The notes under the pieces: generated by a model
What the model saw: only the letters and a program-made list of their open reading frames with translations
Database searches by the model: none
What the model was told of the DNA's origin: nothing
Made by a program: the position numbers and the translations under genes
Shown: one piece after another, positions 10,871 to 54,109 of the stretch
How the letters are laid out: the number at the start of each line of letters is the position of its first letter
Position numbering within the stretch: the stretch's first letter is position 1
From: Sulfuriferula sp. AH1
Lineage (GTDB): Bacteria; Pseudomonadota; Gammaproteobacteria; Burkholderiales; Sulfuriferulaceae
Assembly (NCBI RefSeq): GCF_002162035.1
Contig: NZ_CP021138.1
Coordinates: 2,294,001-2,358,000 of the forward strand
Direction: 5' to 3'
Length of the DNA stretch: 64,000 bases

Positions 10871-10873
10871 TCC

Positions 10874-12420: not shown

Positions 12421-12450
12421 GGTTTATTGTTACCGGACCGGGCAAACCGC

Positions 12451-33935: not shown

Positions 33936-36074
33936 TTACTTAATCCGCTCCCACAGCGTCACCTCGGATAAAGTATGCTGGAACTTGCGCCGGGTCTCGC
34001 GAATCACGAACGGCACGTCCTGCGGTGCGGCGACCAGACGGAAATTTTCGCCAAGCATGGCTTTCAGGCCATCCAGCGTTGTGAAGTTTTCGCCGTCTTT
34101 CTTGTAACCGCCCACCCAGTCCTGCCGTCGCGTATGCTCCTCCAGCCAGGTATAAGGCGAAGCAATCAGCAATATCCCGCCGAGGTTCAGCCGCTCATGC
34201 ACGTTAGCCAAAAACTGCGCCGGGTCATACAGGCGGTCAATCAGGTTGGCCGCCAGAATCAGATCGAAGCCCGTCAAAATCGGCTTGAGGTTGCATGCGT
34301 CGCCCTGCATGAACTGAACTTTATCGCGCACCGCCGCCAATCCCATCGTCGTCAGATCGCGGGTCTTGTATGACACCAGCTCGCCTTCGTCCACCAGCGT
34401 GTAACGGATACTGCCGGTCTGCGCCAGCTGCACGCCCAGATTGATAAAGCGCGCCGAGAAATCCACACCCGTGACTTCATCGAATTGCCGCGCCAGCTCG
34501 AACGTCGCCCGCCCGGTGGCACAGCCCAGATCCAGCGCCTTGCGCATGGGCTTACCGGCCATCACCGCAATGGCGATCTGCGTCAGCGTTCTGGGGAAAT
34601 TGGCGACACCATAATACTCGTCGCCATAATGGAATTCGGCGTACTCCGACAACTGCTTATCGCTCTCGTAATACACATTGGGTACAGTCGCCGGGATATC
34701 GCTGACCACATAGCGGAAACCGGCGTGCTGGAAAAAATGGCGGCGGAAAGCGTAGCGCGCATCGCGCCGCGACTCGTTGCCGCAGGCGATAAACGAGCCG
34801 CCCTTGATCAGGTTATGCCGCCCGTCGAAAGTCGGCGTGGTGAAATCGTCGTACATCGGATGCACTTCGAAGCCGGCGAACGGATAGATCGGCGTTTCCG
34901 TCCACTGCCACACATTGCCCACCACGTCGTACAGCTCGCCATGCGCGAACTGCGTTACCGGGCACGCCGAGACCCAGTGGTCCAGATGCAAATTGGCTGG
35001 CGCTGGCGAATTTGCCGGGACTTCAGCCACGCCGCTGACATCGTACAGGCGATACCACTCGTCTTCGGTCGGCAGCCGCACTGCCTGTCCGCTCTGCGCC
35101 GCCTTCCAGTTGCAGAACGCCTTGGCTTCGTGATAATTGACTTCGACCGGCCAGTCCCACGGCATTGCCACCAGCTCGGTCATCAGGCGCAATTGCCAGG
35201 TAGCGCCTACACGGTGCCAGAATGTCGGCTGCTGCGCCCGGCTGAACTGGCGCCAGCCGCAGCCCTCCTCATCCCACCACGCATCGGTGCAATAACCGTT
35301 CGCCTCGACAAATTCCAGAAACTCGCGATTGCTCACCAGATAACGACCGGCCTGAAATTCGGCGACTTCCGCCACATGCTCGCCGTATTCGTTATCCCAG
35401 CCGTAAATGCCGTCAGCCCGGCTCTTGCCCAGACGCACTGTGCCCGCACTGATGCTCACCAGCTCGTTGCGCGGCGCCTCGCCCGTCAGTTTGCACGGCG
35501 CCCATGCCGGATGCGGCTGCACCCATTCCAGCCGCTGCTGGCGTATCAATACCGACGACGTTTCCAGATGGATGCGCTCGTGCTCTATCCCCATCACAAT
35601 CGTCCACCACGGATGCTGCCAGTCTATCGGCAAACTCAGCGGCGCACGCGCAATCACCGCATCCACCGCCGCGCGCACCTGATCGCGATACGCTTGCACT
35701 TCGGCGACACTCGGCCACGGATAATGCTTGTCATTGAGATCGTCCCAGCTCATTTCATCGACACCCACCGCAAACATCGATTCGAATTGCGGGTTGATGC
35801 GCTCGGTTACCAGCCCCGCCTGCAACAGCTTGTTGATAAAGAAGGTCGCGGTATGGCCGAAATAGAAAATCAGCGGATGCCGCAGGCTGATCGGCTTCTC
35901 GAAATAGGCCGCATCGCAGGCCAGCGTCTCGAACAGCTGCTCATAACGCGTAAACGTCGCATGAAAATAGTCGCGGATGGCGGAACGGGTGGCCTCCACG
36001 CCACTGCCGTTGAGTAACGGCGTACGCGGAAATAAGGAAGTGTGTGCTAAATCCACAGAAGATATCTCACTCAA
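33936..36074 (-). CDS. ovoA: OvoA-type 5-histidylcysteine sulfoxide synthase / methyltransferase
   Basis: A 712-residue three-domain protein. It has an N-terminal DinB-like helical domain, a central FGE-sulfatase (SUMF) domain (about 200-455; WDNEYGEHV, RLPTEDEWY, GNVWQWTE, LIKGGSF) and a C-terminal SAM methyltransferase with DLGCATGRA at 514-522. Iron ligands fit His74 (YFGHTA), His165 and His169 (EHERIHLE). This architecture is that of OvoA, which joins Cys to C5 of His and N-methylates the thiol product to ovothiol A; EgtB lacks the methyltransferase. The assigned start is TTG; a GTG at 36056 is an alternative. A PLP lyase is still needed and one lies nearby. Confidence 0.9.
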   Translation of the reverse strand: MSEISSVDLAHTSLFPRTPLLNGSGVEATRSAIRDYFHATFTRYEQLFETLACDAAYFEKPISLRHPLIFYFGHTATFFINKLLQAGLVTERINPQFESMFAVGVDEMSWDDLNDKHYPWPSVAEVQAYRDQVRAAVDAVIARAPLSLPIDWQHPWWTIVMGIEHERIHLETSSVLIRQQRLEWVQPHPAWAPCKLTGEAPRNELVSISAGTVRLGKSRADGIYGWDNEYGEHVAEVAEFQAGRYLVSNREFLEFVEANGYCTDAWWDEEGCGWRQFSRAQQPTFWHRVGATWQLRLMTELVAMPWDWPVEVNYHEAKAFCNWKAAQSGQAVRLPTEDEWYRLYDVSGVAEVPANSPAPANLHLDHWVSACPVTQFAHGELYDVVGNVWQWTETPIYPFAGFEVHPMYDDFTTPTFDGRHNLIKGGSFIACGNESRRDARYAFRRHFFQHAGFRYVVSDIPATVPNVYYESDKQLSEYAEFHYGDEYYGVANFPRTLTQIAIAVMAGKPMRKALDLGCATGRATFELARQFDEVTGVDFSARFINLGVQLAQTGSIRYTLVDEGELVSYKTRDLTTMGLAAVRDKVQFMQGDACNLKPILTGFDLILAANLIDRLYDPAQFLANVHERLNLGGILLIASPYTWLEEHTRRQDWVGGYKKDGENFTTLDGLKAMLGENFRLVAAPQDVPFVIRETRRKFQHTLSEVTLWERIK

Positions 36075-36165: not shown

Positions 36166-36738
36166 TTAATGAGAAACCCCATCGCGTTTCAATACCTTGA
36201 ATGCGGTGCGCAACAGGATTTGCACATCCAGCGACCATGACATGTTTTGCAAATATTCGGCATCCAGCTGCACTTTTTGCGGAATGGGCAACTCATCACG
36301 GCCATTGATCTGCGCCCAGCCGGTCAGTCCCGGCACCAGATGCTGCACCCCCATTGTCGTGCGCAAACTGATCAGGTCATCCTGATTGAACAATGCGGGG
36401 CGCGGCCCCACCAGGCTCATATCGCCCACAAGGATACTCCAGATTTGCGGCAGCTCGTCCAGGCTGGATTTCCGCAGAAATCCGCCTATGGATGTCAGAT
36501 ATTGTTCCGGCTTGCCCAGCAAATGGGTCGCCACCGCAGGCGTGTCTATCCGCATGGTTCTGAATTTTGGCATACGGAACAGCTTGTTGTCTCGCCCCAC
36601 TCGGTCCGACCAGTACAGCACGGGGCCACGGGACGTCAGCTTAACCATGATAGCCACCAATATCATCGGGACGCACGCCATGATCAGCACCAGCCCTGCC
36701 ACCACCAGATCCATCATGCGTTTGCCGCGATAACCCAT
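36166..36738 (-). CDS. Initiating sugar-1-phosphate transferase (monotopic PGT)
   Basis: A 190-residue protein of the bacterial sugar transferase family (WcaJ/PglC/WbpL-function). It has a single hydrophobic N-terminal segment (DLVVAGLVLIMACVPMILVA), then MPKFRTMRID, SLDELPQIWSILVGDMSLVGPRP and GLTGWAQINGR. It should move a sugar phosphate from a nucleotide sugar to undecaprenyl phosphate, starting a glycan. The ATG at 36738 has an AGGA seven bases upstream. An ATG 21 bases earlier is possible but poorly spaced. It is the last gene of the polysaccharide locus. Confidence 0.88.
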   Translation of the reverse strand: MGYRGKRMMDLVVAGLVLIMACVPMILVAIMVKLTSRGPVLYWSDRVGRDNKLFRMPKFRTMRIDTPAVATHLLGKPEQYLTSIGGFLRKSSLDELPQIWSILVGDMSLVGPRPALFNQDDLISLRTTMGVQHLVPGLTGWAQINGRDELPIPQKVQLDAEYLQNMSWSLDVQILLRTAFKVLKRDGVSH

Positions 36739-36762
36739 ACCGTTTTCCTGTTTTCCCATTCC

Positions 36763-37716
36763 CTACTTGCCAGCTTGTTCAAACCAGCGCACGGTTTCCG
36801 ATAAGCCCTGCTGCATGGAGTACGGAGGCAGCCACCCAAGCTCGCGGCGAATCCCGGAGCTATCAATCTGCAATGAACCGATCAGCCGTTCAACTTCACC
36901 GGACAGCCCTGTCATCTTTCCGGCCAGTTTCAGCAAAAACGACGGGAGCGGCCATAACCAGCTATGTTTCCCCATCAAATTCGCCATATACTGCATCAAT
37001 AACGGCGTCGAAATGTCTTCGCCATCGCTCACCAGATACGTCTTGCCCACAGCAGCCGGATGCGTCGCGCATGTAATCAGCGCATCAACAAAATTGCCCA
37101 GATAAATCATGCTGCGCCGATTGAGAACCGACGCCAGCGGCAACGGCACGCCCCACGACACCAACTTCAACAGGCGAAGAAAATTTCCGCCAACGCCGGG
37201 GCCATATATTAACGGGGGCCGCACAATGACCACTTCCAAACCGGTCTCAAGCGCCACCTGACGCAACGCCTGCTCGGCTTCGTATTTCGAAACGCCGTAC
37301 GAATCCTGCGGGGCAGGTACATCCAGCTCCGAGTAAGGGACGCCTGCAGTCTGCTCGCCATTCACCTTGATAGAACTGACATAGACCAGCCGCTTCACCC
37401 CACTGCTTGCCGCAGCACGCGCAAGGCGCTCGGTTCCGGCCACATTGACTTCCCGAAATGCGGCCAGAGGATCAGCGGCATTCTCGCGCATTACATGAAC
37501 GCGCGCGGCGAGGTGGATAACGATATCCACACCGGCCAGCGCTGCTAGCCAGTCAGTTCCAGCATTCAAACTTCCTACAATCCGGTATTCCATCCCAGAT
37601 ATTTGGTGTTTAGGCACGCTCCTAACTGCACCAACCGCACATACATCTTGTGCCGCTAATCTGCTACAGATAGCACTACCGACAAATCCAGAAGCGCCAG
37701 TAATTAATACCTTCAC
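36763..37716 (-). CDS. WbpV-like NAD-dependent sugar dehydrogenase/epimerase
   Basis: A 317-residue extended short-chain dehydrogenase. It has the Rossmann motif TGASGFVGSAI at the N-terminus, the active-site pair YGVSK and a VSSIKVNGE strand. The overall pattern resembles 4-ketoreductases acting before WbpL-type transferases (WbpV in Pseudomonas O6). The adjacent phosphoglycosyl transferase would use its product, probably a UDP-2-acetamido-6-deoxyhexose. Exact substrate is inferred. Its start overlaps the upstream glycosyltransferase stop by four bases. Confidence 0.75.
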   Translation of the reverse strand: MKVLITGASGFVGSAICSRLAAQDVCAVGAVRSVPKHQISGMEYRIVGSLNAGTDWLAALAGVDIVIHLAARVHVMRENAADPLAAFREVNVAGTERLARAAASSGVKRLVYVSSIKVNGEQTAGVPYSELDVPAPQDSYGVSKYEAEQALRQVALETGLEVVIVRPPLIYGPGVGGNFLRLLKLVSWGVPLPLASVLNRRSMIYLGNFVDALITCATHPAAVGKTYLVSDGEDISTPLLMQYMANLMGKHSWLWPLPSFLLKLAGKMTGLSGEVERLIGSLQIDSSGIRRELGWLPPYSMQQGLSETVRWFEQAGK

Positions 37717-38834
37717 TGACGGTACCTCTTCACTAAATCGCTATATAACGCCACATACGACTGCACCATTTGATCCGCTGTAAATTGTTTCCAGTATCGA
37801 TCTTCGGCACGCTTGCCCATATCCGCGGCCATCTCAGGGTGTTCCCACAAATAACGCATCGCTTGACGGAATGCCACTGGATCATCAGGCGGCACAACCA
37901 GCCCTGTTTCATTCGCAATATTAATAAAGGTCGTACCAGTACCAATTTCGCAAGAAATCATCGGCTTGCCATACATTGCACCCTCTAGCAGCGAGATGCC
38001 AAAAGCTTCCGAGCGCAGATGCGAAGGGAAAACAAATCCATAACACAAACTTAACAATGCGGCCTTGTCCTCATCAGGCAAGCGTCCCAGAAAATAAATA
38101 TTACGCAAACCAAGCCGTGCCGCTTGCGCTTTCAACTCCTGCTCAAGCGGCCCGGCACCGACTATCACTATTGGATAATCAGTGCCTTGTGCCGCTGCCA
38201 ACAAGATATGCAAACCCTTGTAGTAGCGAAGCACGCCTACAAACAAGAAAAATTTCGGCCCGATTTTTTCACGCCAATATGCCAATCTATCGGACGAGGG
38301 GTGAGGATAGCTAGACTTATCCAAGCCATATGGAATCACACTAACCTTATCTGCAAATCTTTTCAGCACATGACTGCTGGCAAGATAATTGGGTGAGGCG
38401 GCCACAATATGATCAACATTACCCAAAAATTTAAACATTAACGGAGAATAAAGCTTAAGCAGATATTTCTGACGAATAATATCCGAATGGTAGGACACCA
38501 ACGCTGGCTTTTTCACCCTGGTCGCAAAGTGAACTACATCCATAAATGGCCAGGGAAAGTGGTAATGAATGACATCTGCCTGCTTTGCCAGCTGTGAAAA
38601 ACGCGAAAAGGCAGAAGCAGAAAAGCCTGCCGAAGCAATGTGCAAATCAAGTTTGGCACGATGCGCCAGATAGCCATCGATTTCAACTGTGCGAGCATGA
38701 CGATCAGGCGTGAGCGAAAGCACATCAGTTTTGACACCCAGTTTCTGCGCACCTCTGGCGATCTGATTAATCACCTGCTCAATACCTCCCATCGTATCCG
38801 GGAAGGAAGTCTTGTAAAAATGTAGCACCCTCAT
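37713..38834 (-). CDS. GT4 glycosyltransferase, WbpZ-like
   Basis: A 373-residue GT-B enzyme. The N-terminus MRVLHFYKTSFPDTMGGIEQ with its GGIE loop and the C-terminal EAFGISLLEGAMYGKP (E-x7-E motif) define GT4. Position after gmd, rmd and another GT4 matches wbpZ in the A-band D-rhamnan locus, where it adds the first D-rhamnose residues. That role is inferred from order. The base composition is visibly more A/T-rich than in the flanking core genes. Confidence 0.8.
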   Translation of the reverse strand: MRVLHFYKTSFPDTMGGIEQVINQIARGAQKLGVKTDVLSLTPDRHARTVEIDGYLAHRAKLDLHIASAGFSASAFSRFSQLAKQADVIHYHFPWPFMDVVHFATRVKKPALVSYHSDIIRQKYLLKLYSPLMFKFLGNVDHIVAASPNYLASSHVLKRFADKVSVIPYGLDKSSYPHPSSDRLAYWREKIGPKFFLFVGVLRYYKGLHILLAAAQGTDYPIVIVGAGPLEQELKAQAARLGLRNIYFLGRLPDEDKAALLSLCYGFVFPSHLRSEAFGISLLEGAMYGKPMISCEIGTGTTFINIANETGLVVPPDDPVAFRQAMRYLWEHPEMAADMGKRAEDRYWKQFTADQMVQSYVALYSDLVKRYRQ

Positions 38835-38883: not shown

Positions 38884-40035
38884 TCACTGTCCGGCCAGCT
38901 TATAAGCGATGAGCGTCGCGGCTACAGTTTTGTCCCAGGAAAATTCAGCTGCCCGCTTCAAGCCACGGCAACGGGCTTCTGCGCACCATACGTCATCTTC
39001 CAAAGCCCGCATCAACGCCTCATATAAAGCCTCGGCATCATCGACAGCAATAAGCACGGCACCATCAACCCCAGCCACTTCAGGTAAAGAAGCCGCATTT
39101 GAGCAAATAACCGGGGTTCCCGCAGCCATTGCCTCCAACACAGGCAAACCAAAACCCTCATAACGTGATGGATAGAGGAAAACACGGGCACCAGCATATA
39201 AAGCCGGCAATGAGGCCTCGTCCACAAACCCAAGATAACGCGCCCATCCAGCACGTTCACCCGCTCTCAGCCGTGCAATCGTATCCTCGCTCTTCCAGCC
39301 CTCAAACCCCACCACGACCAATGGCATCCGTAACCGCAAAGCATGAGGCATCCTCTCGTACACATCGAGCAACATGCCTATGTTTTTACGCGGGTCCAGT
39401 GAGCTGACAAAAAGCGAATAGCGCCCGAAATGCAGCTCCCATCGTGACAAAACAGGTGCCACTTCAATAATATCCATAGGGCGATAATCGGATGATGCTG
39501 CCAAAGGAGCAACCACAATTCGCCTCAATGGCCAGTTGAAATAAACAGCAACCTCCTGGCGAGTAAACTCGGAATCGGTTACTAATACCTGAACCCGTTT
39601 CATGATTTTAGGCAGCTCTTTTTGCATGCGCCGTACGCGTGCAGCAGGATGGCATTCAGGCCACGAAAACATGGACAAATCGTGGAAAGTTGCTACACAA
39701 GGCCCAGGGTGAGGTGGCAAATAATAATTAGGCCCGTGAAAAACATAATCATTGAAATCACGCAATGCTCGCTTTTGCGCAAGCGCCTCAACACGCAAAT
39801 ATACCTCAGCAAACATCGGCAAACTGCCAACTACACGTCTCAAATGCGCATTATTTTGCTGAACACGTCCGATGGCAGGTCTCTCTGGCAGCCCGTCAAG
39901 CACACTGCCACCACGTAAATAACGCACGCGCTCAATGCCTGCGGCGCCCGGCAAACGCCGCCCCAATTCATAAGCATAACGGCCGATTCCCGTTAGCGGG
40001 TAGCGGACGATATCCGCACCAAACAATACCTTCAT
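38884..40035 (-). CDS. GT4 glycosyltransferase, WbpY-like
   Basis: Started at MKVLFGADIVRYPLTGIGRY (383 residues), whose ATG overlaps the rmd stop as ATGA. GT-B fold with the donor-site motif YPSRYEGFGLPVLEAMAAGTP and SSLDPRKNIGMLLD. Coupling to rmd, which makes GDP-D-rhamnose, makes a D-rhamnosyltransferase role likely and matches wbpY by position. The acceptor is unknown. Confidence 0.82.
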   Translation of the reverse strand: MKVLFGADIVRYPLTGIGRYAYELGRRLPGAAGIERVRYLRGGSVLDGLPERPAIGRVQQNNAHLRRVVGSLPMFAEVYLRVEALAQKRALRDFNDYVFHGPNYYLPPHPGPCVATFHDLSMFSWPECHPAARVRRMQKELPKIMKRVQVLVTDSEFTRQEVAVYFNWPLRRIVVAPLAASSDYRPMDIIEVAPVLSRWELHFGRYSLFVSSLDPRKNIGMLLDVYERMPHALRLRMPLVVVGFEGWKSEDTIARLRAGERAGWARYLGFVDEASLPALYAGARVFLYPSRYEGFGLPVLEAMAAGTPVICSNAASLPEVAGVDGAVLIAVDDAEALYEALMRALEDDVWCAEARCRGLKRAAEFSWDKTVAATLIAYKLAGQ

Positions 40036-40931
40036 TGCGATGGCAGGTGATACATCCACGCCAGCGTTTCATTAAGTGGCGGCGAATCCCACGCCCCAAT
40101 GATGCTACGCAGGCGTTCAGCAGAGCCCAGTAACGAGCGCACTTCATTGGCACGCACGAAAGCCGGATTAACCTTTACCTCGATGTCATAACCAGCAATT
40201 TTCCCTACCATCTCAAGTACTTCACGCAAGGAATGACTTTGGCCAGAACAGACATTGATAGTCTCACCAGCCGGACAAATCTGGACTAGCCTGCGGTAAG
40301 CATTCACAACCGCGCGAACATCGCTGAAATCACGGAAAACATCAAGATTACCCAGTTCAATCTGCTTTGCACCCTGCCGAAAATGCCCCACGATTTTAGG
40401 CAGCAAAAAAACATCTGATTGCCCAACACCCGTATAATTAAACGGACGCGCAATCACTATCGGCAGCCGATCGAACCACAAGCGTGCCATATATTCCATG
40501 GCCAATTTACTCACTGCATAGTCGTTTGCCGGATTCGGCAAAGCCGACTCATCAAGCATCCCCTCGGTAGCATTACCGTAAACATTAGCGCTACTGGCCA
40601 ACAGCACGCACTCCACGTTGGGTGCCTCATTAGCCAGCGCCTCAAGCAGGTTCCGCGTACCCACGGTATTCACACGGTAAAATGCCTCCGCGCTATCCGC
40701 AGCGACAAAAGCGATGCCAGCAAGATGCAGCACAACATGAGGGTTCACATTGGCTACTACTGCATGCAATGCCTCTCGGTCGCTTAAATCAACTTGAGTA
40801 TAACGTGGTAAAGCAGACAGACGTTCACCAATACCATAAACCTCAAACCCAGCCACCGCCAATTCATCCGCCACATAACGACCAGTAAAACCGGTCAGGC
40901 CAGTGACCAAAGCGCGTTTATTTGTGGACAT
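40032..40931 (-). CDS. rmd: GDP-6-deoxy-D-mannose reductase
   Basis: Started at MSTNKRALVTGLTGFTGRYV (299 residues), beginning one base after the gmd stop. It is an extended SDR with a GLTGFTGRY nucleotide loop, SSANVYGN and the catalytic YAVSK. Rmd reduces the 4-keto intermediate made by Gmd to GDP-D-rhamnose. GDP-fucose synthase (Fcl) is an alternative for a gmd partner, but the length and lack of Fcl epimerase features and the following WbpY/WbpZ-like genes favour Rmd. Confidence 0.85.
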   Translation of the reverse strand: MSTNKRALVTGLTGFTGRYVADELAVAGFEVYGIGERLSALPRYTQVDLSDREALHAVVANVNPHVVLHLAGIAFVAADSAEAFYRVNTVGTRNLLEALANEAPNVECVLLASSANVYGNATEGMLDESALPNPANDYAVSKLAMEYMARLWFDRLPIVIARPFNYTGVGQSDVFLLPKIVGHFRQGAKQIELGNLDVFRDFSDVRAVVNAYRRLVQICPAGETINVCSGQSHSLREVLEMVGKIAGYDIEVKVNPAFVRANEVRSLLGSAERLRSIIGAWDSPPLNETLAWMYHLPSQ

Positions 40932-40932
40932 A

Positions 40933-41970
40933 TCAGAACGAGAACCCGTCATTAATGCGGCGCACATCGGCCTCCACCATCATCCGGCATAATTCTTCCA
41001 ATGTAGTCTTAGGCTCCCAACCCAGCTTGGCTTTGGCTTTGGCAGGATCACCAATAAGCAACTCAACCTCAGTCGGGCGGTAAAATTTGGGATTAACACG
41101 CATCACGACCTTGCCTGTGGCGGTATCAATAGCCGTTTCATTTTCAGCCGAACCTTTAAACTCAAGCGTAATGCCAACGCCCTTAAATGCCATACGCACG
41201 AAATCACGCACCGTTTCAGTACGATTGGTCGCCAGCACGAAAGTCCCCGGCACATCCACCTGCAGCATACGCCACATACCATCAACATACTCTTTGGCAA
41301 AGCCCCAATCACGCTTGGCATCCAGATTACCCAGTTCCACGCAATCCAGCTTGCCCAGATGAATACGCGCCGCAGCATCCGTGATCTTGCGAGTCACAAA
41401 TTCCAAGCCACGCAACGGCGACTCATGGTTAAACAAAATCCCGCTGGTAGCAAAAATATCGTAGCTCTCGCGGTAATTAATCGTCATCCAGTGCGCATAC
41501 AGCTTGGCCACACCATATGGGCTGCGTGGGTAGAAAGGAGTGTCTTCCATTTGCGGAATCGCCTGCACCTTACCAAACATTTCCGACGTGCTAGCCTGAT
41601 AATAACGGATTTTAGGGTTAACAATACGAATCGCTTCGAGCAGATTCAATGGCCCCAATCCGGTAATAAGCGCAGTGGTCATCGGCTGATCAAACGACAC
41701 CCCCACAAAACTCTGCGCCGCCAGATTATACACCTCAGTCGCCTCGGTGCTTTGCAGTAAACGAATACTGGAACCCAAATCCGTCAGATCGTACTCAACC
41801 AGACGCATATTGGGGTGCTTATCCACACCCAGCTCTGCTATACGCCAGAAATTGACCGAGCTGGTACGGCGATATGTGCCATAAACCGTGTAGTTTTTTT
41901 CCAACAACGACTGTGCCAGATAGGCTCCATCTTGACCGGTAATGCCGGTTATAATTGCGATTTTATTCAA
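40933..41970 (-). CDS. gmd: GDP-mannose 4,6-dehydratase
   Basis: A 345-residue protein with the Gmd signatures: [20 protein letters not shown], the TYRRTSS loop, TSEMFGKVQ, the catalytic YGVAK and [10 protein letters not shown]. It converts GDP-D-mannose to GDP-4-keto-6-deoxymannose. Its substrate is supplied by the bifunctional manC upstream and its product goes to rmd. A second, truncated gmd start is found at 51165-51248, so the locus once had another copy. Confidence 0.95.
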
Positions 41971-42061: not shown

Positions 42062-45000
42062 TTAGTAAACGCCATATTCCTTCGACGCTACATCCAAATA
42101 AAACTTGGATAAGCTGGTTTCCAATTCAAGTGCCTGATATTTCATTGCTGTATTAAACGCATTATTAATCATATTATTTCTTTGATTTCCCTCAGAATCA
42201 GACAATGCTTCAACAATAGCAGACGCGCTAAGTCCTGCATCATTTGAGGGCAACAATACACAATTAATACCGGGCTCTATATACGCTCGATTTCCAAAGG
42301 CATCTGTGCAGAATACAAGGCATTCACATAACATGCCCTCTAATGGAGGCAGGCTCAGCCCTTCGTGCGTTGATGTTTGAATTATTGCGATTGATTCATT
42401 GTATATTTTATTGAGCTCTTGATCGTTTGGTGTTCGCACGAAAACACATCCATCTATATCCTTTACGAGTGATTCATCTGGACCGACTGCAACCACAGTA
42501 TACCTACTGTCCAGAGTTTGAATTTTGGATAGTATTTTTTTAGTGTATGCGAAATTTTTAAGGGGTTCCCCTCGTGCAAATACTAATATCTGAGGTTTCT
42601 TCTTTATTGCCTTATCCCGATAAAACTTATCCTGGTCTAAATAGAATCCAACACATTCAGCAGGCCTCTTAAAATCTAACTCAAGTTTGTCTTTTATCCA
42701 AGTGGCATACGTTAAATATTTGAACTCTGGCATATACATTGAGGCAACCTTGGCAGCAGTTAATAACTCTCCTCGTTTTATGTAATAACTCGACTCAATA
42801 TCTTGAACATAATAAGCAGGAATGCCATTAACTGAGCTTGCTAGCCAGACAGGCTCAGCAGTTTCCCACCACGTCGCAACCTTAATAGCATTCACCTCAG
42901 CTAATTCTGTGGTTAGCTGACTGTAATTACTAAATGTTTTAAATGGTATATTTTTATCTAAATTGTACCAGTTAGGTTTCGTACCTAAGGTCCACAACTC
43001 CACATCAAACTTCAGTTTGTAAAGAGCTGCAATGTGTTGAAAGATAAACCTATGTCCGCCCCCCACGCCACAATCTTGAGTAACGTAAATAATTTTGGGT
43101 GTGCCCGTCTTATTAGATATTACGTTACGTTTAAAGAAAGTTGCGTTCTTTTCCCAGAAATAAGCTTTTGAGTTTAGCTCTCTGGTACCCTGTACTCTAC
43201 TCCGTGTAACCGACTCCAAATGTGTCACTATGCAGAAAGGGGACAGGCAAACCTTTAACTGCTTTTTCCAAGCTCTTAGGGAATAATCGACATCCTCAAA
43301 TGCCATTCCATATTGTTCATCTAACTGACCTAGCTTCGTTAATGCATGACTGGTAATGTACATACATGCACCAGTTGCGTACAAGGTATATTGTTCGAAA
43401 AAGGTTGTTGCACTTTCTAATCGTTCCATATGATGATTATGCATAAACCAATCACTTTCAATTGGGTTGCGCATACCACCGTAATATTGTATATCGCCAC
43501 CTGGATAGGCCAGCTTACCACAAACTATATCTGCGCCTTTTACAAATGAGGAAAAGACCAGATTATCAAGCCAGAAATTAGACACGATGGTATCACTATT
43601 TAGCAAAACAACATGCTCGTCTGCAAGCGCTGCAGACAAGCCACGATTCACATTCCCTGCAAAGCCAATATTTTTCTCACCGTAACAGACTGAAAGCCAA
43701 GTATATTGGCACTCTAATTGAGTTAGCCACTGCTTATGCATATCAGGTGAATTATCATCGCATATGATAACTCTATAATTTACTTTGCTTTCTGCGCTGC
43801 AGATAGAATGAAGACATTCCTCTAATACTACCTGGTCATTGTATGACGGGATGACAATAAGTATATTTTGTTGATTATTACTACAATAATTTAAAGCTTC
43901 ATTATTTGCGTTATTACGTAACTTATTAAAATCAATATCAGGATTTATAAATTGGATGTCCCTAGATTTTTTCAAGTGTTGTACAAGTTTTTTAAATGTA
44001 TAAGTTAATCCCTGTTCATGCATTAGCTCAAACACACGACATCCTGATCTTACAAACCCATACCTACGGACACTGTTTAGAAGCCGCATGGAGCTTGAAA
44101 TCCCATTAGATATTTTGTGCGGATTTCGGATTGTTGCTGAAGGACTACCGCTTATCAATAACAGACTGGGAAAATACTTTGCAAGAGTGTTTCTATGCGC
44201 TGCTTTGACTTGATAGCTCAAGGGGAGTGATTGATACTTACGTTTTGCCAAACGTACCCCCCCTCTTACATACCTTTTGGCTTGCTGTTTTGGGGAGGAA
44301 AGCCAAAGGTGTGCCTCACGTAATGGCAAGGTTATTCGCCAAGAATTACTTGAGATAATTTGAGATAATTGTTGGTTTAGTAAAGCTATTGATTCATCTC
44401 GCTCACTTACCTTATTACCCAACTCATTTACCTTATTACCCAACTCATTTACCTTATTACCCAACTCACTTACCTTATTACCCAACTCAAAAACGTCCAA
44501 AGATCCATCATCCATTTTGCCCATTGAGACATCTTGAATCGAAGTGGCATTAAGTCGTTGCCATCCATTTGTCGAAAACCCCTCTGATCCGACAACAAAT
44601 CGCTTGCCGATCACATTTTCTTCAGGAGAAAATTTTCTGATGATGCACAATGAATTTATAAATTCGATGGAGTGTATCCTTGCAAGATCATAATCATCGA
44701 AATCCACATCAAAATGTGCCGCAAATCCTTTCAATAAATCATTTCTGGATTTGTTATTTCTCCAATGCTCAAAATTAACAACATCCGCCAATCTTTTAAA
44801 GAAAGCAACCGATGACAAAGGGTTGTATATCCCACCCTCAAAATCTTCCCAATAACTACAATGGAGATCCTCCACCACATAAATACCCCCATCATTTAAG
44901 TATGGGAAGTACCGGGCAAATGCACGCACAATGTCGCTAGACTTATGTGAGCCATCGTCAACAATAATATCGAAGGACGTAGACTGTTGAAGGATACGCT

Positions 45001-45295
45001 GCTGACAATCATCTGAATTGACATCTCCAACAACAATCGAAATTCGATGGTCATCGAATCGAAGTTGCTCGCATCTCTGATCTATATCACAACCGATAAT
45101 TTTCTCTGCTTTTGAAAAATAGCAACTCAAAATCTCCAATGAACCACCATTCTGTATTCCGATTTCAAGTAAACGTACCGGCTTATCCTGATAGCCATAA
45201 AGCAAACGGTTATATTCATTCAGATACAAGAACCATTTGTCTGATACCTTGCCAACATGCTCTTCGTAAAGTTGAAAAACTGTCTTTTTACTCAT
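42062..45295 (-). CDS. Methyltransferase-coiled coil-GT2-GT4 fusion protein
   Basis: A 1077-residue fusion. Residues 1-230 form a class I SAM methyltransferase (LLEIGIQNGGSLE at 42-54, then GCDID and IIVDDGSHK). Residues 270-310 are a coiled coil holding four tandem ELGNKV(S/N) heptads. Residues 477-725 are a GT2 domain (VIPSYND, DD at 513-514, LLNSDT, FEDVD). Residues 733-1077 are a GT4 domain (GVGGGHRF, EGLSLPPLEG). It replaces wbpX by position. Terminal methylation plus a coiled coil recalls WbdD-type chain-length control. Its start overlaps wzt by eight bases. The gene is clearly A/T-rich, a sign of transfer. Confidence 0.88.
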   Translation of the reverse strand: MSKKTVFQLYEEHVGKVSDKWFLYLNEYNRLLYGYQDKPVRLLEIGIQNGGSLEILSCYFSKAEKIIGCDIDQRCEQLRFDDHRISIVVGDVNSDDCQQRILQQSTSFDIIVDDGSHKSSDIVRAFARYFPYLNDGGIYVVEDLHCSYWEDFEGGIYNPLSSVAFFKRLADVVNFEHWRNNKSRNDLLKGFAAHFDVDFDDYDLARIHSIEFINSLCIIRKFSPEENVIGKRFVVGSEGFSTNGWQRLNATSIQDVSMGKMDDGSLDVFELGNKVSELGNKVNELGNKVNELGNKVSERDESIALLNQQLSQIISSNSWRITLPLREAHLWLSSPKQQAKRYVRGGVRLAKRKYQSLPLSYQVKAAHRNTLAKYFPSLLLISGSPSATIRNPHKISNGISSSMRLLNSVRRYGFVRSGCRVFELMHEQGLTYTFKKLVQHLKKSRDIQFINPDIDFNKLRNNANNEALNYCSNNQQNILIVIPSYNDQVVLEECLHSICSAESKVNYRVIICDDNSPDMHKQWLTQLECQYTWLSVCYGEKNIGFAGNVNRGLSAALADEHVVLLNSDTIVSNFWLDNLVFSSFVKGADIVCGKLAYPGGDIQYYGGMRNPIESDWFMHNHHMERLESATTFFEQYTLYATGACMYITSHALTKLGQLDEQYGMAFEDVDYSLRAWKKQLKVCLSPFCIVTHLESVTRSRVQGTRELNSKAYFWEKNATFFKRNVISNKTGTPKIIYVTQDCGVGGGHRFIFQHIAALYKLKFDVELWTLGTKPNWYNLDKNIPFKTFSNYSQLTTELAEVNAIKVATWWETAEPVWLASSVNGIPAYYVQDIESSYYIKRGELLTAAKVASMYMPEFKYLTYATWIKDKLELDFKRPAECVGFYLDQDKFYRDKAIKKKPQILVFARGEPLKNFAYTKKILSKIQTLDSRYTVVAVGPDESLVKDIDGCVFVRTPNDQELNKIYNESIAIIQTSTHEGLSLPPLEGMLCECLVFCTDAFGNRAYIEPGINCVLLPSNDAGLSASAIVEALSDSEGNQRNNMINNAFNTAMKYQALELETSLSKFYLDVASKEYGVY
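44405..44488 (-). repeat. Four tandem 21-bp heptad-encoding repeats
   Basis: Four contiguous 21-base units (44405-44425, 44426-44446, 44447-44467, 44468-44488) differ at only one position (C or T at the second base). Each encodes one heptad ELGNKVS or ELGNKVN, residues 270-297 of the fusion protein. Unit changes by slippage would stay in frame and alter coiled-coil length by one heptad. Confidence 0.95.
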
Positions 45296-46655
45296 TGATT
45301 ACCTCTAGACTAACCCTCTCAAATGGAATGCCGACCAGCCCATATCTAATTTTGCTGGAGTACACATTGATGATCAACGCGTCATGCATCCAGTGATGCT
45401 GTAGATTGTCGTAAGCATCACCATCGGCGACGGACGCCATTACTGCATATTGTCCATTAGGCAACATAGGGAAAATGAATTCGAAAGTACCCTCGAATGT
45501 CATGCCCGCCTCAATCGGAGTTGACACGCGGTTGGTAAAGGGAAGCGTATTTTCACCGAACAAGTCTTGCCCCAAACGGTCACGCACAAGGAAGCCAAGA
45601 ATTGGATTTTGCAGCGGTTCATTCGCTTTGGCACGCAGTGTCATACGTACACGCTCCCCGCCTTCGAATACGGCTTCCGACCCTGGCGACAACCGCCTAA
45701 GAGAAACAGAAACAATATGCGCCCCGCCGGTTTTCCAGCCTTTAGCTGCATTGATATTGTCACATACTGAAGACTTATCGCAATTGCCAATCCTAGGTGG
45801 CACCTCTGTGTCAGGAACTATTTCAGATGTACACGCTTCATCGACGAGAGCAGCAGGTACCATTGAAATCAGCTTTGAATCATCACCATAGATTTCCTGC
45901 ATCGTGTATTGAAAATATGCTTCCGATACACTCTTTGCTGTGCCAACCTGTTCAATCATGCCATTCTTGAGCCAAATACCGAAGTTGCAAAGATTTTGCA
46001 CCGATGCTGCATCGTGACTTACAAAAAGCAGCGACCCATTTTCCTGAAAGTTGCGGATGAAACGCATGCATTTCTGTGTAAACACCGCATCGCCGACTGA
46101 CAGCGCTTCATCAACTATTAAAATGTCAGCATCCACATGCGCAATCACGGCAAAGGCAAGACGAACATACATACCGCTGGAGTAGGTCTTAACAGGCTGT
46201 TCAATAAACTGACCAATATCTGCAAAAGCGGCAATATCATCAAAGCGTGCATCGATTTCTTCCTTACTTAAACCTAGCACCGAGGCATTCAAATATACAT
46301 TCTCACGCCCGGTGAATTCCGGGTTAAATCCAGAGCCTAACTCTAGTAAAGCAGCGATGCGGCCATAGGTTTGAATACTGCCACTGGTTGGATTAAGCGT
46401 GCCGCAGATCATTTGCAACAGAGTAGATTTCCCACTACCATTACGCCCGATAATGCCGAAAGTTTCGCCTTTTTTAATGTCAAATGACACGTCTTTGAGC
46501 GCCCAGAATTCGCGGAAGTATTGCCTAGGTGGTTTCCCGGCTAGCCTCTGCAGACGCGGCGCGATAAACTGCTTAAGCCGATCACGTGGGGTGTCGTAGA
46601 TTTCGTAACACTTGCTAAGGCTCTGCACGCGGATGGCAATATCGTTAGAGGACAT
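45288..46655 (-). CDS. wzt: Polysaccharide ABC exporter ATP-binding protein with C-terminal carbohydrate-binding domain
   Basis: A 455-residue protein. The ABC domain (1-250) has Walker A IGRNGSGKST (69-78), signature YSSGMYVRLAFA (158-169) and Walker B ILIVDEALSVGD (178-189). The C-terminal 150 residues (from about 305) are the beta-sandwich Wzt-C domain that in O9a-type systems binds the modified non-reducing end of the glycan before export. That fits the methyltransferase encoded just downstream. It overlaps wzm by 11 bases and the fusion gene by eight. Confidence 0.92.
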   Translation of the reverse strand: MSSNDIAIRVQSLSKCYEIYDTPRDRLKQFIAPRLQRLAGKPPRQYFREFWALKDVSFDIKKGETFGIIGRNGSGKSTLLQMICGTLNPTSGSIQTYGRIAALLELGSGFNPEFTGRENVYLNASVLGLSKEEIDARFDDIAAFADIGQFIEQPVKTYSSGMYVRLAFAVIAHVDADILIVDEALSVGDAVFTQKCMRFIRNFQENGSLLFVSHDAASVQNLCNFGIWLKNGMIEQVGTAKSVSEAYFQYTMQEIYGDDSKLISMVPAALVDEACTSEIVPDTEVPPRIGNCDKSSVCDNINAAKGWKTGGAHIVSVSLRRLSPGSEAVFEGGERVRMTLRAKANEPLQNPILGFLVRDRLGQDLFGENTLPFTNRVSTPIEAGMTFEGTFEFIFPMLPNGQYAVMASVADGDAYDNLQHHWMHDALIINVYSSKIRYGLVGIPFERVSLEVINE

Positions 46656-47505
46656 CAGAAAATCCCTTTCTGGTTTTTTGGAACCAAGCGTAGCCTAACC
46701 AAGCCACGATGGTAGCCACTAATGTGTAAACACCCAAGCCAAGCCAGTTCGGAAAATGTCCCCAGATCAGCACTTCACGGGCTTGTTCAATAATGAAGGT
46801 GAGTGGATTGGCCATAATAAACGGGCGGAATCTTTCCGGCACTGCGCTCACTGGATACAAGACAGGGGAAAGAAACGACAACACGGTAATAATTATGCCG
46901 ATGGTTTGCCCAACGTCGCGCAGAAATACGCCTAAGGATGCCAGCATCCAAGCCAGACCAAGGGTCATGATAACCAGCGGCAGCAGTATCAATGGTGTGA
47001 AAATCACTGTCCAGTGCAAGTAGTCGTTGAAGATTGCAAAGGCGGTCAGCAATACTCCAAGGCTTATGAGGCTGTGAAATAACGCTGCACCCATCGTAAT
47101 GACTGGCAGTATCTCAATCGGAAATACCACTTTCTTGACGTAATTGACGTTGGCAAGAATTAATCCAGGGGCGCGGCTGACTACTTCGCTAAATAAACCT
47201 AGCACAATCATGCCGACAAACAACACTAAGGCGAATTGCGTTTTGCTATCGTCACCACCGATCCCACCCCAGCGCGATTTGAAAATCTCGGAAAACACAA
47301 AGGTATACACCGCCAGCATGAACAGGGGGTTAAGGAATGACCAGATTAGTCCCATGGCCGAGCCTTGGTAGCGGCCTACCACTTCGCGCTTGGTCATTTG
47401 CACAATGAGCTGGCGGTTGCGCCAGATACTTTTGGCCAACGCCATGAGGGATGTGGGTTGGGCGGCGTGAGGATTGATCACTGTTGATGAAGATGAGTTA
47501 GTCAT
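46645..47505 (-). CDS. wzm: Polysaccharide ABC exporter permease
   Basis: A 286-residue ABC-2 permease with six hydrophobic segments. It has the amphipathic start LAKSIWRNRQLIVQMTKREV and the RYQGSAMGLIWSFLNPLFML family signature. With Wzt it exports undecaprenol-linked glycan across the inner membrane. Its ATG overlaps the stop of an rmlC remnant as ATGA, so it once followed rmlC directly. Confidence 0.93.
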   Translation of the reverse strand: MTNSSSSTVINPHAAQPTSLMALAKSIWRNRQLIVQMTKREVVGRYQGSAMGLIWSFLNPLFMLAVYTFVFSEIFKSRWGGIGGDDSKTQFALVLFVGMIVLGLFSEVVSRAPGLILANVNYVKKVVFPIEILPVITMGAALFHSLISLGVLLTAFAIFNDYLHWTVIFTPLILLPLVIMTLGLAWMLASLGVFLRDVGQTIGIIITVLSFLSPVLYPVSAVPERFRPFIMANPLTFIIEQAREVLIWGHFPNWLGLGVYTLVATIVAWLGYAWFQKTRKGFSDVL

Positions 47506-47799: not shown

Positions 47800-49215
47800 T
47801 CATGCACGCCCATACTTATCGTCAAATCTTACTATGTCATCTTCACCCAAATACCCGCCACTTTGCACTTCTATCATCACCAAATTAAGTAACCCCGGGT
47901 TTTCCAGGCGGTGTTTATGCCCGGCAGGAATGTAAGTGGATTCATTGGTATTTACAAAAAGCTCACGATCACCATTGACGACCTTGGCCATGCCGCTCAC
48001 CACTACCCAGTGTTCGCTGCGATGGTGGTGCATTTGCAGGCTGAGGCTGGCATCCGGCTTGACTTCAATGCGCTTGATCTTGAAGCCGTTACCCTCTTCC
48101 AGCACAGTGTAAGTACCCCATGGATGGTGTGCTGTACGGTGAAGTTTGTGCGCCTCGTGACCGTTGGCTTTGAGCTTGGTGTAGATGTATTTAACGTCCT
48201 GAGCACAGGATTTGTCGGCTACCAGAACCGCATCAGGTGTGTCGATAATAATAAGGTTTTCAACACCAACTGTGCCAATTAATCGGTCATTGCTATGGAT
48301 GGTGCAATTAAGGGTGTTATGCAACAGGGTGTCACCTTGTATACGATTACCATTGGCATCTGGCTCGGCAAGATCACCCAATGCGGTCCAGGAGCCAATA
48401 TCACTCCAGCCTATATTGCACGGCACAACGGCTATCTGATCGGATTTTTCCATCACGGCATAATCAATCGAATCATCAGGTACACCACCGAAGGTATCGG
48501 GATCAAGCTCTAATTGTGCAAAGCCATTGCCTTCAGCGGATCGTGATTGCGCTATGCACGCCTTGGTGGCAACCAGAATCTGCGGGCAATGCTGCTTCAT
48601 CTGTTGCAGCATGGTGCCAACCGTGAAGCAGAACATACCAGAATTCCACAGGAACTGACCAGACGCGAGATATTCCTGTGCTTTTTCTAACGTAGGTTTT
48701 TCAACGAAGCGTAATACTGTATTACCGTCGGCTTCAATGTAGCCATAGCCAGTTTCAGGTGCATCGGGCTGGATGCCAAAGGTAACCAATTTGCCAGCGA
48801 GCGCTAATTCAGCAGCTTGACTCACTGCTTGTGTAAAGGCTAGCTGATCTGCAATCAGATGATCCGCTGCGAGCACCAACATGATGGCATCTTGACCGTA
48901 TTTTTGATTGATTTGTAGTGCCGCGCTAGCTATGGCTGCGGCGGTATTACGCCCGAACGGCTCCAGAATAAAAGATGTTGCAACAACGGCAGCGTTCACC
49001 TCTCGGAACTCATCTTCAGTTTTGAAGAACAGTTCGCGGTTAGTGACGGTCAGTATTTCCATCACATCAGGCAGCAGCATTCCACGCAGAAACGCCTTCT
49101 GCAACAGACTTTGCCCGCCACTCAAACGTATGAATGGCTTGGGATGTAACTCACGAGAGACTGGCCACAACCTGGATCCAGCACCGCCGCATAAAATTGT
49201 CGGGATTAATTGCAC
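47800..49215 (-). CDS. manC: Mannose-1-phosphate guanylyltransferase / mannose-6-phosphate isomerase
   Basis: A 471-residue bifunctional type II enzyme (WbpW/AlgA-like). The N-terminal nucleotidyltransferase domain has GGAGSRLWPVSRELHPKPFI and FVEKPTLEKA. The C-terminal cupin isomerase domain has RPWG-like HHPWGTYTVLEEG and QMHHHRSEHWVVVSG. It isomerises fructose 6-P to mannose 6-P and makes GDP-mannose from mannose 1-P, the substrate of gmd. The start codon is GTG with AAGG upstream. It heads the D-rhamnan half of the locus after a 173-base gap in which no convincing promoter was found. Confidence 0.94.
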   Translation of the reverse strand: MQLIPTILCGGAGSRLWPVSRELHPKPFIRLSGGQSLLQKAFLRGMLLPDVMEILTVTNRELFFKTEDEFREVNAAVVATSFILEPFGRNTAAAIASAALQINQKYGQDAIMLVLAADHLIADQLAFTQAVSQAAELALAGKLVTFGIQPDAPETGYGYIEADGNTVLRFVEKPTLEKAQEYLASGQFLWNSGMFCFTVGTMLQQMKQHCPQILVATKACIAQSRSAEGNGFAQLELDPDTFGGVPDDSIDYAVMEKSDQIAVVPCNIGWSDIGSWTALGDLAEPDANGNRIQGDTLLHNTLNCTIHSNDRLIGTVGVENLIIIDTPDAVLVADKSCAQDVKYIYTKLKANGHEAHKLHRTAHHPWGTYTVLEEGNGFKIKRIEVKPDASLSLQMHHHRSEHWVVVSGMAKVVNGDRELFVNTNESTYIPAGHKHRLENPGLLNLVMIEVQSGGYLGEDDIVRFDDKYGRA

Positions 49216-49388: not shown

Positions 49389-51158
49389 TCATTGGGTTAA
49401 TCGCAACACCGAACCGGGTGTGCCGTCTTCAACTATCCGCCCCTGTTCCAGCCGATACAATCGATCGCAATGCTCTATTGTAGAAAGACGGTGCGCGACA
49501 ATAATGATAGTCTTGCTGCCATGCAACGCCTGAATTGCTTGCATTACTTCCTGCTCGGTAACGGTATCGAGCGCACTCGTCGCCTCATCCAGCACCAATA
49601 CCGAAGGGTCGCGGTACAAGGCTCGTGCGATGCCTATGCGCTGGCGTTGCCCACCCGAAAGACGAATACCACGCTCGCCAACAAATGTTTCCAGCCCGTC
49701 TGGCAGGCTGGACACAAATTCATCAAGTTGCGCAGCATGGATGGCGCGCTGCACGGCAGCATTATCAATCTGCGCGTCTGGCAAACCAAAAGCCACGTTG
49801 CGCCGCAAGCTATCATCAGTAAGATAGATCGACTGCGACACATAACCTATCTGATCCTGCCAACTCCTCAGATTTTCTTGTACATCATTTCCATCCAGCA
49901 ACACGTTGCCCGCATGAACAGGCAGCAAGCCTAATAAAATATCAATCAAGGTACTTTTGCCGGAGCCACTTGCGCCGATAAGCCCGACGGATTCACCAGC
50001 CCGGATAGTGAGCGAAAGGTCTTTAAGAGCAGGTTCAGTTGTATCAGGGTAAGCATAAGTAATGTGGTTTAGCACCAACTCGTTACGAAATAACATATCA
50101 GGACCTGACTTATGCTTAACATCCGGGACGACAAGATTTAGCTCCGTGTAGAGTGTGTTAATTACCGGCAAACCATAACGCAACGATTGCGCTGCACCTA
50201 GAATCCGGTTGGTTGAGGGCATGATTCGAAAAGCTGCCGCAGCAAACAGGCCTAGCGTCGGTATAATCGTATTAAGCATGTGCCCCTGCTCAATCATACT
50301 GATTACCAATATAGCCAAACCACTCACCGCCAGCAATTCCAGCCATAAGCGAGGTAATTGTTGCAAGGTGGCCTGCAAGCGCGCAGAGCGTGCGCTCTTG
50401 ATATTATGTTCAAGATATGTATCCAAAAACACTTGTTCACACCCAAAAATTTTCACATCCTTGGCACCGCCCAACCCTTGCTGCAAGTGCAGGAGTCGCA
50501 GACCATCATGATATTGACGCGCGGTACCCCATGCAACGATACGGCTACGCGCAATTCGATAAAACCCCCAGGTAGCAACACCCAATATATTCACAACTAT
50601 TAACGCACCTATAGGCTCGACAATAAACAGCAATACACACAAACCTGACAGCACGAACGACTCAGTTATCAACAGCATGCCTGGCAGTATCGCGTTATCA
50701 ATCAACTGGGTCACCTCACCGGTGACATTTCGTATTAATTGTGAAGAATTACGTTGCAAATGGAAGGTATAAGGCTGCTGCAAGTATATTGCGAATAAAC
50801 GCTGCGAAAGTTGCGCCTGCATACCAAAAGCAAATTGGGTCTGTTTCCAGGCAAGCAATGCCAGAAACAGTGTTTTGATAAAATACACACCAACCAGCAT
50901 CAGCATGCCGCCGATAACAAGATGCTGCTGACTCGGATAACCCAGTGCTTGCATAACCCGCTGAAATACCGGATATTTGTATGTAACATCGCCCTGCGTG
51001 AGCAATGCGAGCGCCGGTATGACCAACCCCACGCCCAAGGTTTCCAGCAGCATACCCATGAACATCAGCCCCAATAATACGATTGCACGCCGCTTTTCAA
51101 TGGGCGTGAGTAAATTCCATATTTTTCCGGCTGTTGATGTCAGACTGATTGGTAGCAT
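49389..51158 (-). CDS. MsbA/PglK-like ABC exporter (fused permease and ATPase)
   Basis: A 589-residue half-transporter starting at MLPISLTSTAGKIWN; a TTG one codon earlier is less likely. Six hydrophobic helices (about 25-320) are followed by an ATPase domain with Walker A GASGSGKST, signature LSGGQRQRIGIARAL and Walker B VLVLDEATSALD. Homologues flip lipid-linked glycans or lipid A. In this locus it may flip the dideoxyhexose-containing lipid intermediate, separate from the Wzm/Wzt route; the substrate is inferred. It begins seven bases after the end of a gmd remnant. Confidence 0.85.
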   Translation of the reverse strand: MLPISLTSTAGKIWNLLTPIEKRRAIVLLGLMFMGMLLETLGVGLVIPALALLTQGDVTYKYPVFQRVMQALGYPSQQHLVIGGMLMLVGVYFIKTLFLALLAWKQTQFAFGMQAQLSQRLFAIYLQQPYTFHLQRNSSQLIRNVTGEVTQLIDNAILPGMLLITESFVLSGLCVLLFIVEPIGALIVVNILGVATWGFYRIARSRIVAWGTARQYHDGLRLLHLQQGLGGAKDVKIFGCEQVFLDTYLEHNIKSARSARLQATLQQLPRLWLELLAVSGLAILVISMIEQGHMLNTIIPTLGLFAAAAFRIMPSTNRILGAAQSLRYGLPVINTLYTELNLVVPDVKHKSGPDMLFRNELVLNHITYAYPDTTEPALKDLSLTIRAGESVGLIGASGSGKSTLIDILLGLLPVHAGNVLLDGNDVQENLRSWQDQIGYVSQSIYLTDDSLRRNVAFGLPDAQIDNAAVQRAIHAAQLDEFVSSLPDGLETFVGERGIRLSGGQRQRIGIARALYRDPSVLVLDEATSALDTVTEQEVMQAIQALHGSKTIIIVAHRLSTIEHCDRLYRLEQGRIVEDGTPGSVLRLTQ

Positions 51159-51164
51159 CAAATT

Positions 51165-51248
51165 TTAATTTGCAGGTTTTGCCAACAAAAATTCAGCCAA
51201 ATAGGCGCCGTCCTGCCCAGCCACCTCAGTAATAAGTGCTTTTTTCAT
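51165..51248 (-). pseudogene. 5' remnant of a second gmd gene
   Basis: A 27-codon frame, [20 protein letters not shown] followed by LLAKPAN and TAA, reproduces the GDP-mannose 4,6-dehydratase N-terminus and then stops. The first glycine of the nucleotide loop is changed (ITEVAGQDG for ITGVTGQDG). Its ATG overlaps the stop of the EPS regulator gene as ATGA. EPS-associated MarR regulators often precede gmd. The rest was probably lost when the exporter gene was inserted. Confidence 0.85.
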
Positions 51249-51580
51249 TTAGATCTCACGTTGGATTCAATATCGTTCTGCAACTGTTGTATTTCAGCCT
51301 TTATCGCTTCGTATTCCGCCAGCTTATATTTGAGAAACTGCACGGTTATTTTCGCTTTTTCCTCAACACCACTAGGGGTGAGTAAATAAATATAGCTTTT
51401 TTTATTTTCGCTCTGGCGAAAGTTATTGACTTTAACCAGCCCTTTTTCTATCAATGCATTCAGGCAAAAGTTTACTTTGCCCAGACTAATCCCCAACTCA
51501 CGCGCTAATTCACGCTGACTGACTTCAGGCTCGATTTCGAGTTTTTTGAGTATTTTGTAGCGGTATTCGTCAGTTAACAT
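51245..51580 (-). CDS. MarR-family EPS-associated transcriptional regulator
   Basis: Started at MLTDEYRYKILKKLEIEPEV (111 residues). A TTG 11 codons earlier would lie on the predicted transcription start. Winged helix-turn-helix: SQRELARELGISLGKVNFCLNAL is the recognition part, with a basic wing (NFRQSENKKSYIYLLT), then a C-terminal coiled coil that probably dimerises. This short MarR type is found in exopolysaccharide loci of many betaproteobacteria. A 17-bp palindrome overlaps its own predicted promoter, suggesting autoregulation. Confidence 0.85.
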   Translation of the reverse strand: MLTDEYRYKILKKLEIEPEVSQRELARELGISLGKVNFCLNALIEKGLVKVNNFRQSENKKSYIYLLTPSGVEEKAKITVQFLKYKLAEYEAIKAEIQQLQNDIESNVRSK

Positions 51581-51606
51581 GTGAACTGTTGCGCCATAAA
51601 AACGTT

Positions 51607-54108: not shown

Positions 54109-54109
54109 C

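Follow-up and report, generated by a model that had tools for sequence, protein, structure and literature searches.

A one-chain methyltransferase, coiled coil, GT2 and GT4 protein beside wzm-wzt in Sulfuriferula sp. AH1, with a 21-bp repeat in its coil DNA

Introduction

Proteins that hold a chain-capping domain and glycosyltransferases (GTs) on one polypeptide have been described in several systems. For Geobacillus stearothermophilus, PMC2943079 describes WsaE, a single chain with an N-terminal methyltransferase and two rhamnosyltransferases. Its gene forms a block with wzm and wzt (wzm-wzt-wsaE) whose codons overlap, and methylation is proposed as the chain end. Matches to wzm, wzt, WsaE and WsaF are reported for the lipopolysaccharide cluster of Xanthomonas oryzae (PMC3898925). 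In Klebsiella O12, according to PMC11231755, WbbB joins an N-terminal capping GT to two C-terminal polymerase GTs in one polypeptide, and in Klebsiella O7, ORF6 has the order methyltransferase-kinase-coiled coil-GT2-GT2. Here we describe a fusion protein of 1077 amino acids from Sulfuriferula sp. AH1. It is encoded in a stretch of 64,000 nucleotides (contig NZ_CP021138.1, positions 2,294,001 to 2,358,000), called the window, to which coordinates refer unless a locus is named.

The protein is probably a single-chain polymerase-terminator for an O polysaccharide that depends on an ABC transporter, is rich in D-rhamnose, is methyl-capped, is measured by the coil as a ruler and is read by Wzt. An initial annotation of this frame had also proposed a methyl cap, a coil ruler, a polymerase and an end-reading Wzt. 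This is the best functional reading, with the ruler and the cap as its putative parts.

Results

The fusion frame and its modules

The modules, with limits set from Pfam and AlphaFold2, are the following.

42062..45295, minus strand: fusion of methyltransferase, coiled coil, GT2 and GT4, 1077 amino acids
44576..45295, minus strand: sugar O-methyltransferase of MycE/SpnK type, residues 1-240, with DDGSH at 113-117 and ED at 142-143
44351..44494, minus strand: predicted heptad coiled-coil helix, residues 268-315 (48 residues), putative ruler (AlphaFold2 helix and heptads)
44402..44489, minus strand: 21-bp tandem array, 4.2 copies, 97% match, encoding ELGNKV[SN] heptads
44264..44344, minus strand: SWRITLPLR motif, starting at 318, and the helices after it, residues 318-344 (family comparison and AlphaFold2)
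43181..43885, minus strand: GT2 (GT-A fold), residues about 471-705 (AlphaFold2 and structure matches)
42065..43093, minus strand: GT4, residues about 735-1077 (Pfam PF00534), with EGLSLPPLE at 978

The frame runs uninterrupted from 45295 down to 42062 on the minus strand, as a check of frame and translation confirmed. Its start overlaps wzt by 8 bp, and the start of wzt overlaps wzm by 11 bp. Four modules in one frame within an overlapping wzm-wzt block, as first annotated, are thus borne out by translation, Pfam and AlphaFold2. A terminator-type domain, a coil and at least two GT domains all lie within this frame.

As for the N-terminus, its Pfam methyltransferase match is marginal. We rejected the idea of a false match, as structure comparison found a fold of the MycE/SpnK type. 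The DDGSH and ED residues of those enzymes are conserved, and we take them to be the metal and base residues. The N-terminal domain is therefore a methyltransferase and not a beta-Kdo transferase of GT99. Pfam gave no kinase match beside it, and there is no room for a kinase between residues 240 and 268.

The SWRITLPLR-type motif is the usual end of the coil among proteins of this methyltransferase family, and it may have a membrane-side role. WrtF and RmlT rank among the best structural matches of the GT2 module. The GT4 half reaches 59 bits in Pfam against a cut-off of 26.4. The modelling that the initial annotation had suggested succeeded for the methyltransferase, the coil helix and GT2, and gave no confident model of the GT4 half.

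Relatives of the fusion

An alignment of nine sequences was scanned against genome contigs, giving at least 592 stretches and 506 confirmed relatives, of which the best 80 were kept. Adding the window and seven loci found earlier, and removing L052 as a duplicate, gives 87 methyltransferase genes. In 30 of the 87, a Wzt_C gene lies directly upstream on the same strand, at a gap of -60 to 400 bases, and many of these 30 overlap the upstream gene by 4 bp. Most of the 30 (24) extend more than 250 residues beyond the methyltransferase. GT queries match the same frame in 18 of these 24, window included, and find no match in the other six (L065, L067, L094, L100, L101 and L121). The MycE/SpnK methyltransferase family is a frequent N-terminal partner of coils and GTs beside Wzt_C. 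With 18 loci that carry a one-chain methyltransferase-GT frame behind Wzt_C, the description of the window protein as a novel "compact variant" was overstated.

Pfam was run on six selected fusions. Two of them, L049 (Pelotomaculum, 1092 amino acids) and L050 (Chloroflexi HGW-6, 1138 amino acids), have methyltransferase, linker, GT2 and GT4 in the order of the window, so that the homologue search for the whole architecture, proposed at the outset, found it to recur. The ATPase next to L049 has no Wzt_C match. The other four vary: L047 has GT2 with GT4, L053 has GT4 then GT2, L107 is GT2-GT2-GT4, and L064 (Nitrincola, 8920-12720) has GT2-GT2. The L064 protein ends in a second methyltransferase domain (1004-1135), different from the first, after its two GT2 modules. 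Stand-alone methyltransferase-coil proteins of about 330 amino acids are found behind wzt in L040, L041 and L103.

A longer frame comes from the same genus as the window. This protein, in L032 (4059-9641), has 1860 amino acids, with a methyltransferase, a coil of several hundred residues and GT2-GT2-GT4, and lies within an exporter cluster where no Wzt_C match was found.

The GC content of the fusion frame is 38.7%, against 54.5% for the window, and the methyltransferase tree places the window next to a sequence from Omnitrophota (support 99/94; the bootstrap had not settled). The frame was likely imported. A further step would be to suppose that it arrived recently and stays silent or does not match the genes around it, which we consider very improbable. 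Composition and tree position would fit, as would the GT4 half, for which the other 397 genomes sampled from the phylum gave no relative at E <= 1e-15. However, the frame is intact, its catalytic residues are conserved and it overlaps wzt.

A 21-bp repeat in the coil DNA

The initial annotation had missed a DNA repeat that encodes the coil heptads. In the window a 21-bp unit occurs four times in near-identical form, with one base differing. The copies are identical at all third positions and are therefore probably recent.

Tandem Repeats Finder (TRF) was run on 103 proteins of the methyltransferase family, or 102 after merging L118 and L152, which are one gene. Arrays within 200 residues after the methyltransferase occur in 15 of the 102. 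The period is divisible by 21 (21, 42, 84 or 126 bp) in 14 of these, the exception being L053 (12 bp). No array was found inside the methyltransferase domains (71 kb, 102 proteins). Three arrays of 15 or 30 bp precede the methyltransferase (L062, L073 and L136); these frames were taken stop to stop, and the arrays possibly precede the true start. Two lie farther downstream, in the long coil of L032 (282 bp, without heptad phase) and just before the SW motif in L121.

As a control we used 596 neighbouring open reading frames (805 kb). Arrays occur in 30 of them, with a period divisible by 21 in 10, one of which is the antisense of L085's own array. Array density is 0.30 per kb in the linkers and 0.037 in the control. 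Set against the control share of 10/30, the 14 of 15 linker arrays give p 2e-6; the p of 2e-11 obtained by assuming that one period in seven fits by chance is too strong. Among the matches listed in a search of titles and abstracts, mostly without subscription papers, none was recognisable as a repeat-encoded ruler in O-antigen systems.

Linker lengths in steps of seven

Linker length was taken between the methyltransferase end and the SW motif, landmarks found in 64 of the 103 proteins (39 dropped). For L059, L075, L091 and L148 the landmarks were wrong by eye; these remain in the pair counts and are excluded from the median. The linker has 82 residues in the window and a median of 121 over 60 proteins (range 61-190).

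Lengths in the family are quantised. Among pairs with methyltransferase identity >= 0.70, 25 are equal in linker length and 138 unequal, and in 66 of the unequal pairs the difference is a multiple of 7. The remaining pairs fall modulo 7 into class 4 (28), class 3 (16) and the other four classes together (28); classes 3 and 4 are what steps of 11 would give. A nearest-neighbour count finds multiples of 7 in 11/38 (p 0.015), and in 9/21 at identity >= 0.70 (p 0.0014, a hand count with the threshold chosen afterwards). These p values are weakened because pairs share ancestry and the counts are not independent.

In some pairs the step coincides with a duplication. L072, from the Mesorhizobium group, exceeds L058 by 28 residues where an 84-bp stretch is duplicated (97%), and L076, from the same group, exceeds L087 by 14 at a 42-bp duplication (96%). 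L051 exceeds L040 by 28, and the window exceeds L046 by 21. We infer that this last difference is located in the array; the MAFFT alignment of the two speaks against that, placing the 21-residue gap at the end, outside the array. For L055 and L081 the raw difference is 65, and an aligned 5-residue gap before the coil leaves 70. In the Mesorhizobium group, where 28 of 146 genomes have the methyltransferase, 14 of 21 distinct linkers share one class modulo 7. That list and the L055/L081 difference come from a landmark set of 67 of 117 entries, duplicate genomes included.

A 21-bp repeat allows the coil to change in length and stay in register, and judging from these sequences the evolution of the ruler seems to proceed by duplication of entire heptads. 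Whole-heptad tandem duplication would be a simple evolutionary path to new chain lengths, and it predicts stepwise modal lengths.

Copy number within species

A stronger form of this idea is that a heptad-phased minisatellite encodes the ruler in this family. Whole coil units (21, 42 or 84 bp) would be gained or lost through slippage or unequal exchange, and chain length could move by fixed steps, heritably and reversibly, with register kept. We hold this to be possible, though somewhat doubtful. If true, both copy number and O-chain length should vary among strains of a single species. Within-species variation in copy number was sought and none was found, in a test that covered members without the repeat. 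A relative is present in 5 of 5426 E. coli genomes, and all five copies align in one piece and at equal length to the full 3540 bases of L094 (Enterobacter), at 92%. Equal length in five genomes argues against fast change in that coil, and TRF found no array in L094.

Furthermore, 15 plasmid records matched, and three were examined: L155 (E. coli), L156 (Enterobacter cloacae) and L157 (Klebsiella pneumoniae). All three hold the methyltransferase with dTDP-rhamnose and exporter genes; it is fused in L155 and L156 and a separate gene in L157. Transposase genes of IS26 flank both sides in L157 and one side in L155.

Donor genes, export and neighbours

The genes around the fusion are listed below; SDR stands for short-chain dehydrogenase/reductase.

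47800..49215, minus strand: manC, mannose-1-phosphate guanylyltransferase / mannose-6-phosphate isomerase (TIGR01479)
46645..47505, minus strand: wzm, ABC-2 permease
45288..46655, minus strand: wzt, ABC ATPase with C-terminal carbohydrate-binding domain (Wzt_C)
40933..41970, minus strand: gmd, GDP-mannose 4,6-dehydratase (TIGR01472)
40032..40967, minus strand: SDR, probable GDP-D-rhamnose synthase, rmd-like, named from context
38884..40059, minus strand: stand-alone GT4
37713..38834, minus strand: stand-alone GT4
36166..36759, minus strand: polyprenyl-phosphate sugar-1-phosphate transferase (Bac_transf), probable initiating enzyme

In terms of donor sugar, manC and gmd pass curated model cut-offs and the SDR is taken as rmd by position, which is why we read the donor as GDP-D-rhamnose. 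Among the part of the window genes scanned for dTDP-L-rhamnose synthesis, one rmlC-like gene lies just under the TIGR01221 cut-off.

The presence of wzm and of a wzt with a C-terminal carbohydrate-binding domain fits an ABC-transporter O polysaccharide with an end-reading Wzt. The sole match of the window Wzt-C among solved structures is the Aquifex Wzt domain (E 5e-9), which is 6O14 and 7K2T in PMC9445017. That paper has this domain binding 3-O-methyl-D-mannose and not D-mannose, and takes the Aquifex O antigen as 80% rhamnose with a 3-O-methyl cap. In the alignment, with numbering verified via Met353 and His355 of that paper, the window domain keeps Trp362 (the lid over the methyl), Leu300 and Arg304, and, as a point on the other side, lacks Thr346, Ala348 and His350. 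Recognition of a methylated chain end by the window Wzt is therefore likely on sequence grounds.

Other genes of the window touch on surface sugars. At 52608-57269, genes of the CDP-3,6-dideoxyhexose type adjoin the D-rhamnose-type cluster: a glucose-1-phosphate cytidylyltransferase, a CDP-glucose 4,6-dehydratase and RfbH all pass cut-offs, together with an RmlC-like epimerase (just under cut-off) and an SDR, and a GT2 lies at 51662-52615. This suggests a dideoxyhexose in a surface polymer. Upstream of manC-wzm-wzt, at 49389-51613, are a PglK/MsbA-like ABC exporter (under both models' cut-offs) and a MarR_EPS regulator, and the exporter is a possible second route for lipid-linked sugars. Lastly, a 712-amino-acid frame at 33936-36074 with DinB_2, FGE-sulfatase and methyltransferase domains resembles an EgtB-EgtD fusion for ergothioneine synthesis.

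Discussion

In the mechanism that we propose, GT2 and GT4 would work near the membrane and extend a polyprenol-linked chain rich in D-rhamnose, from GDP-D-rhamnose supplied by ManC, Gmd and the Rmd-like SDR. An oligomeric coiled coil would carry the N-terminal methyltransferase at its distal tip. As soon as the chain had grown enough for its non-reducing end to reach this enzyme, the end sugar would be O-methylated and growth would stop. The C-terminal domain of Wzt would then read the methylated end, and Wzm/Wzt would export the chain. The short ruler (48-residue helix) may have been lengthened through duplication of the 21-bp heptad unit. The sugar, the methylation site, termination and the ruler function are all putative here.

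The ruler step is the least certain part, because the coil is short (its length corresponds to about 7 nm, that of WbdD to about 20 nm) and WsaE methylates independently of chain length in vitro (PMC2943079). It is rather unlikely, but worth weighing, that the fusion polymerises and caps while the coil merely oligomerises or anchors it, so that length would come from competition between extension and methylation, or from export. The short coil and the WsaE result favour this, as does the presence of a glycine in every repeated heptad, four in all. On the other side, WbdD and the O12 system are both reported to use a coil as ruler (PMC11231755 for O12). Linker lengths also vary in steps that keep register, which is compatible with either role.

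Further observations weigh against the polymerase-terminator reading. No Wzt-type ATPase was seen near 37 of the 87 methyltransferase genes (some contigs are short), including L050, with the architecture of the window. In the available DNA none was seen for 23 of 35 genes with fewer than 250 residues after the methyltransferase and for 14 of 52 longer ones. Another 19 of the 87 lie near an ATPase without Wzt_C. The methyltransferase therefore frequently occurs without a Wzt_C-type exporter. The GT4 half has distant relatives only and gave no confident model: modelled alone its mean pLDDT (predicted local distance difference test) is 31.5, its best E against the PDB is 0.012, and among the collected loci its single match is a weak one, L050 at 28 bits. 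Finally, O101-type E. coli strains whose methyltransferase is broken still show an O antigen, altered in length and structure. The O101 enzyme was tried as a relative and rejected: an L106 query matched only the same five E. coli genomes, none above 80% coverage, and homology is therefore not established.

MycE and SpnK decorate the sugars of antibiotics. By analogy, the window methyltransferase might decorate a sugar in every repeat, or a sugar nucleotide, and not terminate at all, and the clusters that have this type of methyltransferase but showed no Wzt_C gene would agree. We regard this as improbable, since an end-reading Wzt adjoins the fusion and the coil separates the methyltransferase from the GTs. 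In addition, E. coli O162 has one methyl per chain, although its enzyme is analogous and the likeness is not one of established homology.

Comparison with described systems

The claim of novelty was based on the view that the capping enzyme and the polymerase are usually separate chains. This view fails, with WbbB, O7 ORF6 and WsaE all single chains (PMC11231755, PMC2943079). Given these precedents and the recurring methyltransferase-GT frames among relatives, we rejected a new architecture type; the fusion is not new in kind.

WsaE, compared by domain make-up only, shares a methyltransferase, two GTs and the overlapping wzm-wzt block, but it makes an L-rhamnan for a Gram-positive S layer, whereas the window donor genes suggest GDP-D-rhamnose. 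WbbB has a terminator, a coiled coil and two polymerase GTs on one chain and an end-reading transporter, with a beta-Kdo glycosyltransferase (GT99) where the fusion has a methyltransferase. O7 ORF6 is likewise a single chain that contains a methyltransferase, a coiled coil and a pair of GT modules. A kinase and a fold like a carbohydrate-binding module (CBM) stand between its methyltransferase and coil (methylphosphate cap), where the fusion has about 27 residues, and its GTs are both GT2, in contrast to GT2 and GT4. WbdD/WbdA of E. coli O8 and O9a share a methyl-type cap, a coiled-coil ruler and an end-reading CBM of Wzt, but terminator and polymerase are separate proteins there and one chain here. 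MycE and SpnK share the fold and the presumed metal and base residues, but they are free-standing antibiotic tailoring enzymes, unlike the fused methyltransferase of the window. The fusion thus adds one further module order to the known class of O-chain polymerase-terminators.
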